DNA from: Bacteroidota bacterium
Lineage (GTDB): Bacteria; Bacteroidota; Bacteroidia; Bacteroidales; F082
Length of the DNA: 64,000 nt
NCBI GenBank assembly: GCA_014382445.1
Contig: JACNJS010000045.1
Coordinates: 62,001-126,000, forward strand
Direction of reading: 5' to 3'
Shown: in pieces, positions 1 through 5,407 of the stretch
How positions within the stretch are numbered: position 1 is the stretch's first letter
Layout of the letters: each line of letters starts with the position of its first letter
Made by a program: the position numbers and the translations under genes
The notes under the pieces: model-generated
Seen by the model: the letters and a program-made list of their open reading frames with translations, nothing else
Told to the model about the DNA's origin: nothing
Database searches by the model: none

Positions 1-772
1 TCAGATAAACGGCACAACCGGCTACGAGGAAGCTGCTGCTCAAGGTTTAATGGCAGGAATAAACGCCCATCTAAAATTAAACAATAAATCATCATTTATT
101 CTTAAAAGACACGAAGCGTATATCGGTGTGCTTATCGACGACTTAATTACAAAAGGTGTTGATGAGCCTTATCGCATGTTTACATCAAGAGCTGAATACA
201 GAATTCTCTTGCGTCAGGATAATGCTGATGTTAGGCTGACCCCAATGGGATATGAACTTGGCCTTGCCTCTAAAGAAAGGTATGAGGCTGTTGTTCACAA
301 AAAGAAAACAGTTATTGAAATTGTAAAATTAACAAAAGAACAAAGTATTAGCCCGGATGAAGCAGAGTCATTATTAAATATCCGAAACACAACACCTCTT
401 AAACAAAAAGTTAAACTTTCTGATCTACTTCTTCGCCCCCAAATAAATATCGACGATTTAATTTCGATAAGCAAACCGTTTAGTAATGCTCTAAAAATAT
501 TATCGCCTAGTAAAGAAGATTTGGAAAATACTGAAATTCTCATTAAATATGAGGGTTATATTTTAAAAGAAAATGAACTGGTTACAAAGCTCTCAAAACT
601 TGAAAATATTCCACTTAAAGAAGATTTCGATTATCATAGTTTAGTATCTATTTCGACAGAAGCGAGAGAAAAGCTATCAAAAATTAAACCCTCAACGATT
701 GGTCAGGCTTCTCGAATTAGTGGAGTCTCGCCATCAGATATAAATGTAATTGCCGTTTTTATTGGCAGATAA
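1..772 (+). CDS. mnmG: tRNA uridine-5-carboxymethylaminomethyl(34) synthesis enzyme MnmG, C-terminal part (5' end outside window)
   Basis: Frame open from base 2: QINGTTGYEEAAAQGLMAGINAHLK...DEPYRMFTSRAEYRILLRQDNADVRLT; typical MnmG/GidA C-terminal motifs. Confidence 0.96.
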   Translation, partial: QINGTTGYEEAAAQGLMAGINAHLKLNNKSSFILKRHEAYIGVLIDDLITKGVDEPYRMFTSRAEYRILLRQDNADVRLTPMGYELGLASKERYEAVVHKKKTVIEIVKLTKEQSISPDEAESLLNIRNTTPLKQKVKLSDLLLRPQINIDDLISISKPFSNALKILSPSKEDLENTEILIKYEGYILKENELVTKLSKLENIPLKEDFDYHSLVSISTEAREKLSKIKPSTIGQASRISGVSPSDINVIAVFIGR

Positions 773-775
773 AAA

Positions 776-1678
776 TTGTTTCACGTGGAACAAAATACTA
801 AATTATTAGATATTCATGCCTGCCCCTTGTGCGCCGGAGATAATTTTATACATTTCCTGAATACTAAAGATTTCTTTTTTACACAAGAAGATTTTTCCTT
901 ATATAAATGTGCAGATTGCAATTTTGTTTTTACTAATCCTGTTCCTACATCGATTTCTAAATATTATGAAACACCCGATTACCTTTCACATAATACAAAT
1001 GGAAAAGGTGCATTAGCATGGCTGTATTATTTGCTCAGAGAAATAAATATAAAAAGAAAATATCAGCTCGTCACAAAATATTGCAAACAGGGAAATATCT
1101 TGGACATCGGTTGTGGTACAGGGGAGCTTCTTAATTTCTTTAAAAAAAATAATTGGCTGGCTTTGGGTGTTGAACCAAATTTAACCGCTCGTGAATTTGC
1201 TGCCAATAAATATCTGATTGATGTTTTTGAAGAAAATAAACTTGACGAATTTGATCACGGAACATTAGATGTTATATCAATGTGGCACGTGCTGGAACAT
1301 GTTCCTGACCTTCATCGCAGATTATCGAAAGTTTCAAAACTTCTAAAAGATGACGGAACAATTTTTATTGCAGTTCCTAATATAGATTCACCAGATTCGA
1401 AAAAATACAAAAAATATTGGTCTGCACTTGATGTTCCCCGCCATCTTTACCATTTCACACCAGCTACATTCGAACATTTAATTTCCAAACACCAGCTCAA
1501 GCTTGTTCATGCAGAGCCGATGAAATTTGATTCCTACTATGTAAGTATGTTAAGCGAAAAATATCTTAAGAACCGTTTATATTTTCTTTCAGCCAGCTAT
1601 TATGGATATTTATCAAATTTAAAAGCTAAAAGAAATAACAATTATTCCAGCATGATTTTTGTTGTTAAAAAAGATTAG
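776..1678 (+). CDS. class I SAM-dependent methyltransferase with N-terminal zinc-ribbon-like CxxC pairs
   Basis: TTG start (MFHVEQ); CPLC..CADC; ILDIGCGTGELLNFFKK motif I; WHVLEHVPD. Confidence 0.88.
   Translation: MFHVEQNTKLLDIHACPLCAGDNFIHFLNTKDFFFTQEDFSLYKCADCNFVFTNPVPTSISKYYETPDYLSHNTNGKGALAWLYYLLREINIKRKYQLVTKYCKQGNILDIGCGTGELLNFFKKNNWLALGVEPNLTAREFAANKYLIDVFEENKLDEFDHGTLDVISMWHVLEHVPDLHRRLSKVSKLLKDDGTIFIAVPNIDSPDSKKYKKYWSALDVPRHLYHFTPATFEHLISKHQLKLVHAEPMKFDSYYVSMLSEKYLKNRLYFLSASYYGYLSNLKAKRNNNYSSMIFVVKKD
777..792. promoter_or_regulatory. parS-like centromere site (TGTTTCACGTGGAACA)
   Basis: Near-perfect 16-bp palindrome; its reverse complement is TGTTCCACGTGAAACA, the ParB/Spo0J parS consensus. 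Overlaps codons 1-6 of the methyltransferase downstream of mnmG. Confidence 0.85.
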
Positions 1679-1695: not shown

Positions 1696-1741
1696 AATCT
1701 CATTAATTATTGCATTCTTGCTTGGAGTATGCATATTACTT

Positions 1742-4700
1742 ATGCCAATGTTTAAGTCGATAAATAAGAAAATATCATCTATTTTCATCTCTCTGTCTAT
1801 ATTATTTTTTCTGTCGTATTATCTCACGCAATATTTCCATAACAAAACTCATACAGGTCCTGTAGAAACAGAAATATTGTCCAAACGAATTGATTATCAG
1901 GCTGTTAGTCTGTTAAAGCTCATGGGAGACACTAAAGATATCCTGACTGAAAACTCTAATAATTATTGGCAAAAATTGGATAGTATATTTTATAAAAACC
2001 AGTACGTTTGCTTTATCACGAAATACGATAGTATTAATTACTGGAATACTAGCAAAGTTAGTGTGCTTGCTTTTTCTGATTTAATTTTAGATAATAGTAT
2101 ACATGTAATTAATTTGCCCTCAGGTTGGTACTTATATACTGCTGCCTCAATTCAAAACTATAATATTTACATCCTGTCATTGATCAAGGCTGATTTTCAG
2201 GTTAATAACAACCTGCTTAATCCCGAATTCAGTACTGAATATTCAATTTGCCCTGATTTAGACCTTACTCTTAACGCAGAAGAAGCATCGCATATAATTT
2301 ACAATACTAACAGACAATTTTTGCTCGGCACTACATACAAAGCTGATCAGGGCGGCTCAAATAATATTAATTCAACCATTTTCATATTATTTTTCCTTGC
2401 ATATCTTTTTCTCATAATGTTTTTGTTTCGGTCAATAACTAATTCAAAATTCTCGATCAGGAAGCCCATCCTTGGTTTCATGTCCTTCATCATAATTGTT
2501 GCATTAATAAGAATTTTCGATATTTACTTCCATTTTCCTTCTGAACTGAAGTCTACTCAAATATTTTCAAATAATATTTTCGTCATACCTTTTACAGCCT
2601 CTATTGGTGATCTAATTATCAATACTGCCTTATTGATAATATTTTCTTTTTCATCGTTTCGGTTTTTCTCAAGAAATATAATGCGCCCGTCAATTGTCAA
2701 AATTATAGTAAAATATTCGATATTATGGGCTTATATTTTAGTAATATTATTTGTTATATATCATACTATTTACGACCAAAACATTTCATTTTTCTCAGAA
2801 AGTCTTCTTAATAATTATAATTTATTTATTTCCGTTTTAGTAATCATCGGACTTAACATAAGCCTTTATTTTGCGTTCGTTACGTATTTAGCTTCCTCTA
2901 AGGATGAAATTGTTCCCTTTTTCATCCCGTTCTTAATATCGTTAGTTGGAATTTTTTTGACTTATTTTTTATCAGATATTCCATTAGTGCTGCTTATAAT
3001 AACTTTAATAATTACATTTATTTTAATCACCACGAAACAAACTATCTGGAAATATACTACCGATTTATTTCTAAACCACCTCGTTCTGCTGGTACTTCTT
3101 GCAATAGTTACGTCTGTTATCATAAGTAATTCGTACAAACTTAAAAATGAAAAATATCAGGAATTTATAGCCCAAACATTAACGATTACCAGCGATTCAA
3201 TTTTTGAGTATTCATTTGATAATATAGTTAAAAAAGTGAAGAATGATAAGCTTATAACACAGTTGCTATTTACTGATACAGTTGCAACTGATGCAAATTT
3301 AGAGGAATACATACGGTCGAATTATTTTAATGAATATTTAGACAAATATAATATTCAGATTACAAATTGTGTTGAGGATGAATTACTTGAAATACAACCA
3401 GCTGGCGAAATACATGATTGTGCTGATTATTTTAATTCCCTGATTGAAGAGGCTACAATTCCGGTTCTTGATTCGTTTCTATTTCGATTTAACCTAGGTA
3501 CAGAAAGTATTTATTATATAAGCCGATTCTCTTTTATAAATCCAGATAATCCCAGCCGAATCCGAAATATTTTTATTGAATTCGTTTCTTCACACGTGCC
3601 TGAAGGCCTTGGATATCCCGAGTTGTTAATTGATAAACGGTCGAACACTTTAAGCCTATCAGAATATACTTTCGCCATTTACTCAAATAATCACTTAACG
3701 TACAAATTTGGTGACTTTCCCTACAGTACGTATCTTTCACCGGAGAAAAGTTTTCAATTAGAAACACACTATGACTACAACAATTTCCATCACTATGCAA
3801 TGCTTATTTCGCCAGATAATTACCTGATAGTTAGTAGGGAGAAAACAAGCACAACTATGACAATCGTTTTGTTTTCATCCATATTCATTCTGTTATCATT
3901 AATATCAATTGTGGTTTATATAACTGTATATGCGAGGAGAGCAATTAATTTATTCAGAGTAAACTTCAAAACCAGACTACAATCTTTTGTAATTGCAACA
4001 TTAACGCTAACGTTTGTACTTATGGCGATTACAACGTTTATTTATATTCAAGATAGCAGCCGTGAAACTCTTGAAAAACAATTAACCGAAAAAACAAACT
4101 CTGTATTAATAGAGCTTCAGCATAAACTTTCCGCGGTTACAAATTTACAGAGCCAGGATGTAGATTTCCTACATCAATTACTTCGTAAATTTTCATTAGT
4201 GTTTTTTTCAGATATTAATCTTTACGATCAATCGGGATATTTAATTGCAACGTCAAGGCCTGAGATTTTCGAAAAAAACCTATTATCAACATACATAAAT
4301 CCAAAGGCTTATAAGGCAATATTTTTCGATAATAAACTAAATTTCATAACTGAAGAAAAGATAGGTGCGCTTAAATATTATTCATCATATGCCCCGATAA
4401 CTTTAAATAATGATTTCCCGATAGGGGCCGTAAACCTCCCATATTTTGCACGACAAACTGAATTCACAAAATCATACTACATAATGCTATCATATTTGAT
4501 TAATATTTATGTAATTATTGGAATAATTGGCGCGCTGATTGCGATTATTTTTTCAAGGTATTTAACCCGGCCATTGGTCTTGCTTCAGAAAAGTTTGGCG
4601 ACAATAAGAATTGATAAACATAACGAAAAGATACAGTGGACCAAAAATGACGAGATTGGTATGCTTATAAATGAATATAACCGCATGGTAGATAAGCTGG

Positions 4701-5407
4701 AACAAAGTACCGAACTGTTGAAGCATTCTGAACGAGAAAGTGCCTGGCGTGAGGTTGCAAGGCAAATTGCTCATGAAATAAAAAACCCTCTAACCCCAAT
4801 GAAGCTAAATGTCCAATATCTGGAAAAATCATTTAAAAATAAAGATCCTGAATTTGCTTCAAAAATTTGCTCAATAAGTACGTCGTTAATCCAACAAATA
4901 GATACGCTGAACAATGTTGCTGAGATGTTTTCTGATTTTGCTAAAACCAAATCTTTGGATTTTTTACAAGTAAATCTTAATAGTGTTATAAGCTCATCGG
5001 TAAATTTATTTAATAAAAATACAAATGTTTCAATTTCAACAACTTATGCAGAGCCTGAAAATGACTTGTTTACGCTTGGTTTTGAAAAAGACATATTGAG
5101 AGTGATTAACAATGTAATTAAAAATGCAATTCAATCAGTTGAGAAAAACGAAAAGGCTAAAATCATGATCAGCGTTGTTCGCAAATCAAAATTTATTACC
5201 GTGGCTGTTACGGATAATGGCATAGGAATTTCAGAAGAAATGAAATCGAAAATATTCCATCCTTATTTTACTACCAGAACAAGTGGTACGGGTTTAGGCC
5301 TTGCTATTGTTAAAAACATCATGAACGAAATAGGAGGGGAGGTGCATTTCGAATCAGATATAAACAAAGGAACAACCTTCTTTCTAATATTTCCAGATGC
5401 ATCTTAG
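1742..5407 (+). CDS. large multi-TM sensor histidine kinase (NtrY-like: TM regions, HAMP, HisKA, HATPase_c)
   Basis: H-box VARQIAHEIKNPLTPMKLN; N/G boxes NAIQSVEKNE, VTDNGIGIS, GTGLGLAIVKNI; ORF extends upstream to 1718 with an alternative start. Confidence 0.88.
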   Translation: MPMFKSINKKISSIFISLSILFFLSYYLTQYFHNKTHTGPVETEILSKRIDYQAVSLLKLMGDTKDILTENSNNYWQKLDSIFYKNQYVCFITKYDSINYWNTSKVSVLAFSDLILDNSIHVINLPSGWYLYTAASIQNYNIYILSLIKADFQVNNNLLNPEFSTEYSICPDLDLTLNAEEASHIIYNTNRQFLLGTTYKADQGGSNNINSTIFILFFLAYLFLIMFLFRSITNSKFSIRKPILGFMSFIIIVALIRIFDIYFHFPSELKSTQIFSNNIFVIPFTASIGDLIINTALLIIFSFSSFRFFSRNIMRPSIVKIIVKYSILWAYILVILFVIYHTIYDQNISFFSESLLNNYNLFISVLVIIGLNISLYFAFVTYLASSKDEIVPFFIPFLISLVGIFLTYFLSDIPLVLLIITLIITFILITTKQTIWKYTTDLFLNHLVLLVLLAIVTSVIISNSYKLKNEKYQEFIAQTLTITSDSIFEYSFDNIVKKVKNDKLITQLLFTDTVATDANLEEYIRSNYFNEYLDKYNIQITNCVEDELLEIQPAGEIHDCADYFNSLIEEATIPVLDSFLFRFNLGTESIYYISRFSFINPDNPSRIRNIFIEFVSSHVPEGLGYPELLIDKRSNTLSLSEYTFAIYSNNHLTYKFGDFPYSTYLSPEKSFQLETHYDYNNFHHYAMLISPDNYLIVSREKTSTTMTIVLFSSIFILLSLISIVVYITVYARRAINLFRVNFKTRLQSFVIATLTLTFVLMAITTFIYIQDSSRETLEKQLTEKTNSVLIELQHKLSAVTNLQSQDVDFLHQLLRKFSLVFFSDINLYDQSGYLIATSRPEIFEKNLLSTYINPKAYKAIFFDNKLNFITEEKIGALKYYSSYAPITLNNDFPIGAVNLPYFARQTEFTKSYYIMLSYLINIYVIIGIIGALIAIIFSRYLTRPLVLLQKSLATIRIDKHNEKIQWTKNDEIGMLINEYNRMVDKLEQSTELLKHSERESAWREVARQIAHEIKNPLTPMKLNVQYLEKSFKNKDPEFASKICSISTSLIQQIDTLNNVAEMFSDFAKTKSLDFLQVNLNSVISSSVNLFNKNTNVSISTTYAEPENDLFTLGFEKDILRVINNVIKNAIQSVEKNEKAKIMISVVRKSKFITVAVTDNGIGISEEMKSKIFHPYFTTRTSGTGLGLAIVKNIMNEIGGEVHFESDINKGTTFFLIFPDAS

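Follow-up and report, generated by a model that had tools for sequence, protein, structure and literature searches.

The 16-bp palindrome at positions 777-792 of the window, by which the whole 64,000-nucleotide stretch of DNA analysed here is meant, is almost certainly where the chromosome-segregation protein ParB docks, judging from its sequence and surroundings. Very probably, it is a chromosomal parS that is paired with a second site, brackets mnmG together with it, and doubles as the translation start of the methyltransferase gene that follows mnmG. The site behaved as an ordinary parS in all tests run. Of more interest are the mnmG-bracketing pair, which marks where the centromere is placed throughout the phylum, the location of parAB apart from parS, and a start codon that overlaps a centromere.

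A pair of parS sites around mnmG and the ParAB proteins

The window carries TGTTTCACGTGGAACA at 777-792, a 16-bp palindrome with a single non-complementary pair at positions 5/12, which are the two N positions of the parS consensus. Its reverse complement, TGTTCCACGTGAAACA, fits the consensus TGTTNCACGTGAAACA with zero mismatches, while only 0.0002 matches per 64 kb and 0.012 per genome are expected by chance under a first-order Markov model. No further exact parS site was found within the 64-kb window. The initial annotation had described a palindrome with one mismatch pair over a TTG start, and an exact fit of its reverse complement to the ParB/Spo0J parS consensus; on rechecking, the sequence, coordinates, reading frame and fit were all correct.

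The 3.47-Mb assembly (97 contigs, 96% complete) was then scanned for parS with ≤1 mismatch allowed. Exactly two sites were retrieved, both exact, at C97:60881 and C97:62777, with a spacing of 1,896 bp and mnmG between them (Table 1). A scan with the 14-bp core returned the same two sites, and the reversed consensus, used as a control in the same assembly-wide scan, gave zero matches. Copies scattered over the genome had been named beforehand as an outcome that would speak against a centromere; the two copies found lie 1.9 kb apart, and few, clustered copies are what is expected of a chromosomal parS. The ORF caller assigned the N-terminus MFHV[K/E]QN to both mnmG and the methyltransferase. However, parS-1 probably lies in the mnmG leader and mnmG itself starts after it, because relatives align from the ATG located 7 bp past parS-1, from which the protein begins MFDRYD. 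The mnmG stop codon is at 770-772.

Table 1. Positions of the parS pair, the adjoining genes and the candidate initiation features (window coordinates unless a contig is named).
Feature	Position	Strand	Description
parS-1	G000:C97:60881-60896		TGTTCCACGTGAAACA; 1,896 bp upstream of parS-2; 7 bp before mnmG ATG
mnmG, 3′ part (tRNA uridine modification enzyme)	2..772	+	gene begins before the window; TIGR00136 E=1.6e-87
Class I SAM methyltransferase, N-terminal zinc-ribbon motif CPLC...CADC	776..1678	+	300-aa ORF; Pfam PF13489 (Methyltransf_23) E=4.9e-27
Likely start codon TTG	776..778	+	3 nt past mnmG stop; replaced by ATG in five genomes of the same genus
parS-2 (parS site)	777..792	.	exact match to TGTTNCACGTGNAACA; conserved beside mnmG across the phylum
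Alternative start codon GTG	785..787	+	centre of the palindrome; only usual start before the zinc ribbon in five orthologues
RNA hairpin from the palindrome (prediction)	776..793	+	7 pairs, loop ACGU, about -5 kcal/mol; would include TTG-776

Absence of parB from the genome, which had likewise been considered as evidence against the site, was not observed. A single ParB_N match (117 bits) was found, whose protein passes the TIGR00180 cut-off and whose gene is overlapped upstream by that of a ParA-family ATPase; this parA-parB operon is located on another contig than parS. Just upstream of parA, a 121-aa protein without an NCBIfam match is encoded (L004:103-468), which we take to resemble the DUF3276/PUR-like short proteins. 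To switch specificity between ParB and Noc, two positions are known, R173 and G201 in the parS type and Q and R in the Noc type (PMC7383237). In an alignment with ParB and Noc chains, the helix-turn-helix of the ParB studied here reads GKSR...GHAR vs. GKGQ and RHAR of Noc. Because R and G stand where Noc has Q and R, the ParB of this genome is classified by its residues as parS type, not Noc type.

Based on these components, a ParB (Spo0J) dimer would bind the palindrome, load as a CTP clamp and spread over the neighbouring DNA, and such loading would occur at both parS-1 and parS-2, the two sites working together. ParA would then move the replicated origin region, namely the mnmG region, apart soon after replication.

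Position of parS across the phylum and relative to the replication origin

To count parS sites in relatives, fully listed genome searches that were chosen independently of parS were used, and sites within 500 bp of mnmG were scored. In 55 genomes of the same order, 62/65 exact parS sites were within this distance, and two of the three exceptions were on contigs with a broken mnmG junction. The same held for 29/34 exact sites in 28 genomes of the same class, plus one inside mnmG, and for all 39 exact sites in 26 genomes from a family distantly placed in the phylum. In 15, 4, and 13 genomes of the order, class, and distant family, respectively, parS is present on both sides of mnmG, and the gaps are commonly 5-15 bp in the order and distant-family samples. 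Exact parS was absent in 17/61 relatives, several of which keep a one-mismatch version before mnmG. Among 80 named mnmG loci, a site with ≤1 mismatch precedes mnmG in 58 and follows it in 35, a set that is biased in that one search peptide, MFHVKQNT, favours parS-bearing loci, so the tally was taken from the unbiased genome searches. By these counts, the mnmG flanks appear to be the usual place of parS in this phylum. No earlier description of a parS-mnmG link or of the N-terminal peptide was found in a literature search that did not cover the main parS survey (Livny et al., 2007).

In most lineages parS is evidently intergenic, since reading through the sites gives only short frames, and its overlap with the methyltransferase start is characteristic of this family and a few others. 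The embedding of parS in the first codons, as claimed in the initial annotation, therefore stands for the genome studied here but not for most relatives, and is a local variant. Separately, arrays of parS or parS-like sites were seen before mnmG in Flavobacterium genomes (L056, L071, and L078); in Flavobacterium sp. MC2016-06 (L056:3818-4950), the array consists in part of 117-bp units repeated in tandem, each with TGTTCCACATGGAACA, in which one base of the core is changed. In another genome, two exact parS sites abut with a 16-bp spacing just before mnmG (G150:C13:294784-294815).

The initial annotation had also placed the window in the origin-proximal region. The GC skew of its own contig, C97 of the 97-contig assembly, is flat without a clear switch, neither dnaA nor parB was found on C97, and no DnaA-box cluster was found near parS on it. 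Complete relatives were sampled because this contig gives no usable skew. In G009, the sign change of the skew is near 225 kb and the parS sites are at 314 and 316 kb; dnaA is found at 682 kb and parB at 1.48 Mb. In G117, the skew changes in the interval 2.40-2.55 Mb, and parS, dnaA, and parB are at 2.567, 1.82, and 1.68 Mb, respectively; in G155, it changes in the interval 2.60-2.795 Mb, and the three are at 2.764, 4.19, and 1.47 Mb. For G117 and G155, the skew was obtained from 20-kb samples taken every 170-215 kb, and the switch is placed only that finely. Thus, the mnmG/parS locus is at or near the GC-skew minimum in three complete genomes where dnaA and parB are unlinked, and in two others, G112 and G123, parS is 7-9 kb from dnaA. 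These positions indicated that the origin is accompanied by parS and mnmG but often not by dnaA and parAB. By analogy with these relatives, parS may be origin-proximal in the genome studied here as well; this proximity rests on the relatives because C97 has no clear skew switch, dnaA or parB, so the earlier placement found support in complete genomes but not in the skew of its own contig.

A par operon within the origin domain is a common feature of ParABS systems (PMC7022226). In G009, G117, and G155 the operon is outside this domain, and in the genome studied here parAB and parS are on different contigs. The parB genes of the three relatives are at G009:C1:1478633, G117:C1:1682636, and G155:C1:1470308, 0.88-1.3 Mb from parS and the skew minimum.

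The proposal of a chromosomal ParB-loading site at 777-792 is thus supported, as far as sequence comparison goes, by the exact consensus, the two clustered copies, the presence of parAB, and the conservation beside mnmG.

Overlap of parS-2 with the methyltransferase start

The gene after mnmG had been called a methyltransferase, and its Methyltransf_23 match (E=5e-27) confirmed this; orthologues at E≤1e-60 were found in 38/60 relatives. Directly after it, an ORF at 1718-5407 encodes a 1,229-aa membrane protein, the C-terminal part of which, as read in the ORF translation only, resembles a histidine kinase by its HEIKNPLTPMK motif (GTGLGLAIVKNI).

Upstream of the CPLC zinc-ribbon motif, TTG-776 and GTG-785 are the only in-frame ATG, TTG or GTG codons. 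Both are in or at the edge of parS, the first two bases of parS-2 being the second and third bases of TTG-776, and therefore parS and the translation start overlap. TTG-776 is likely the real start and is favoured over GTG-785, because five same-genus genomes have ATG there and because an A is present at -3, which is a positive initiation element in Bacteroidota (PMC6847099). GTG-785 is kept as the alternative, since five more distant orthologues (L135, L139, L140, L149, and L155) lack any ATG or TTG upstream of the zinc ribbon, and the GTG at the parS centre, as their sole usual start codon, would be the start in these.

Neither a promoter-like match at 777-792 nor a terminator-like sequence at the junction of mnmG with the methyltransferase gene was found. 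As the junction with mnmG is only a few bases long, the methyltransferase would use parS as its translation start, at either TTG-776 or GTG-785. Translational coupling of this gene to mnmG is probable, as suggested by the 3 nt between the mnmG stop and TTG and by the palindrome hairpin predicted over TTG. A further role is conceivable, in which parS doubles as a translation-initiation element and ParB occupancy or spreading, or the RNA hairpin, ties methyltransferase expression to the centromere and to mnmG translation, but we regard it as rather unlikely. In Pseudomonas aeruginosa, raised ParB is reported to repress promoters near two parS sites (PMC5521831).

The 7-bp hairpin that the transcript can form across TTG-776, and the location of the site at a gene junction, would also fit a site of another CACGTG-core regulator, or a translational hairpin controlling the methyltransferase, instead of a centromere. 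This explanation is improbable, because the full parS consensus is matched with degeneracy only at the known N positions, the second copy precedes mnmG and is not over its likely start, and the sites are grouped at a single locus, which in five complete relatives is close to the GC-skew minimum or to dnaA. Moreover, the predicted hairpin is not unusual and is no better than those of many shuffled sequences (z of -1.6).

The codons that coincide with the in-frame parS motif were compared among orthologues. FHV[KE][QH] is in frame in 21/30 methyltransferase orthologue loci, and in these His is encoded by CAC in 21/21 and Val by GTG in 21/21, vs. backgrounds of 32% CAC and 14% GTG in the rest of the same 21 genes; the 21 orthologues are from related genomes and the codon counts are not independent, so an exact probability for the bias is withheld. 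The fourth residue can be K or E, the fifth Q or H, and both lie where the parS consensus leaves the letters free or comes to an end, the reverse of the pattern expected from selection on the peptide. Because the CAC and GTG codons are fixed while the amino acids vary at the consensus-free positions, selection acts on the DNA of parS, not on the peptide, and would thereby dictate the N-terminal residues FHV[K/E][Q/H] of the methyltransferase. The earlier suggestion that the centromere constrains the N-terminal peptide is in line with these counts. Loss of the palindrome at synonymous positions, which would have argued against it, was seen in none of the 21 in-frame orthologues; as to conservation in these relatives, the site and its CAC and GTG codons are kept, whereas the fourth and fifth residues are not.

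The occurrence of FHV[KE][QH] in frame in these 21 loci could alternatively mean that MFHVEQ has been conserved because this N-terminus is functional in the methyltransferase, with the parS match as a by-product. However, residues change exactly where the consensus is free or ends and the synonymous positions of His and Val never do, orthologues L142, L144-L148, and L152 are without the peptide, and most other lineages carry this DNA between genes, so that this explanation is largely refuted already and is very improbable. A chance match in an AT-rich genome is ruled out, its probability being negligible, by an expectation of 0.012 per genome vs. two sites found 1.9 kb apart, the empty reversed control, and a position conserved in dozens of genomes.

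Significance and comparison with known systems

A centromere anchored to a gene would provide a practical ori finder for Bacteroidota draft genomes, in which both mnmG ends are to be checked; this is useful because dnaA and parAB can be far from the origin in this phylum. The overlap is also a clear-cut natural example of protein sequence being set by a DNA-binding site, in which amino acids vary and synonymous positions are frozen. Bacteroidota do not use Shine-Dalgarno pairing (PMC9976891; PMC6847099), and a question raised by the overlap is how a single start site can serve both ribosomes and ParB without it.

Among known systems, the Noc binding site NBS (PMC7383237) is similar in being a related 16-bp palindrome bound by a ParB relative, but it has different letters and a scattered genome distribution, and the ParB of this genome has R and G vs. 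Q and R in Noc. Membership in NBS was rejected, as neither the NBS letters nor the Q/R specificity residues are present. In Bacteroides caecimuris and other gut bacteria analysed by Hi-C, parS clusters and GC skew were used to place ori, and an ori not always at dnaA was already reported, according to the passages of PMC10197239 consulted here; unlike the present description, these passages mention neither mnmG nor an overlap with coding sequence.

The chromosomal parS of Spo0J/ParB (consensus TGTTTCACGTGAAACA) is matched in the 16-bp palindrome, the few copies, the parAB genes, the parS-type ParB residues, and the location in the origin region, here in complete relatives. In contrast to the textbook layout, parAB is linked neither to parS nor to the origin in the complete relatives tested, and two copies bracket mnmG, one of them overlapping a start codon. 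Clusters of gidA(mnmG)-gidB-parA-parB occur at the origin in other phyla, and the likeness to them is that mnmG is beside partition machinery; here, however, rsmG and parAB are not adjacent, and what mnmG adjoins is parS only.
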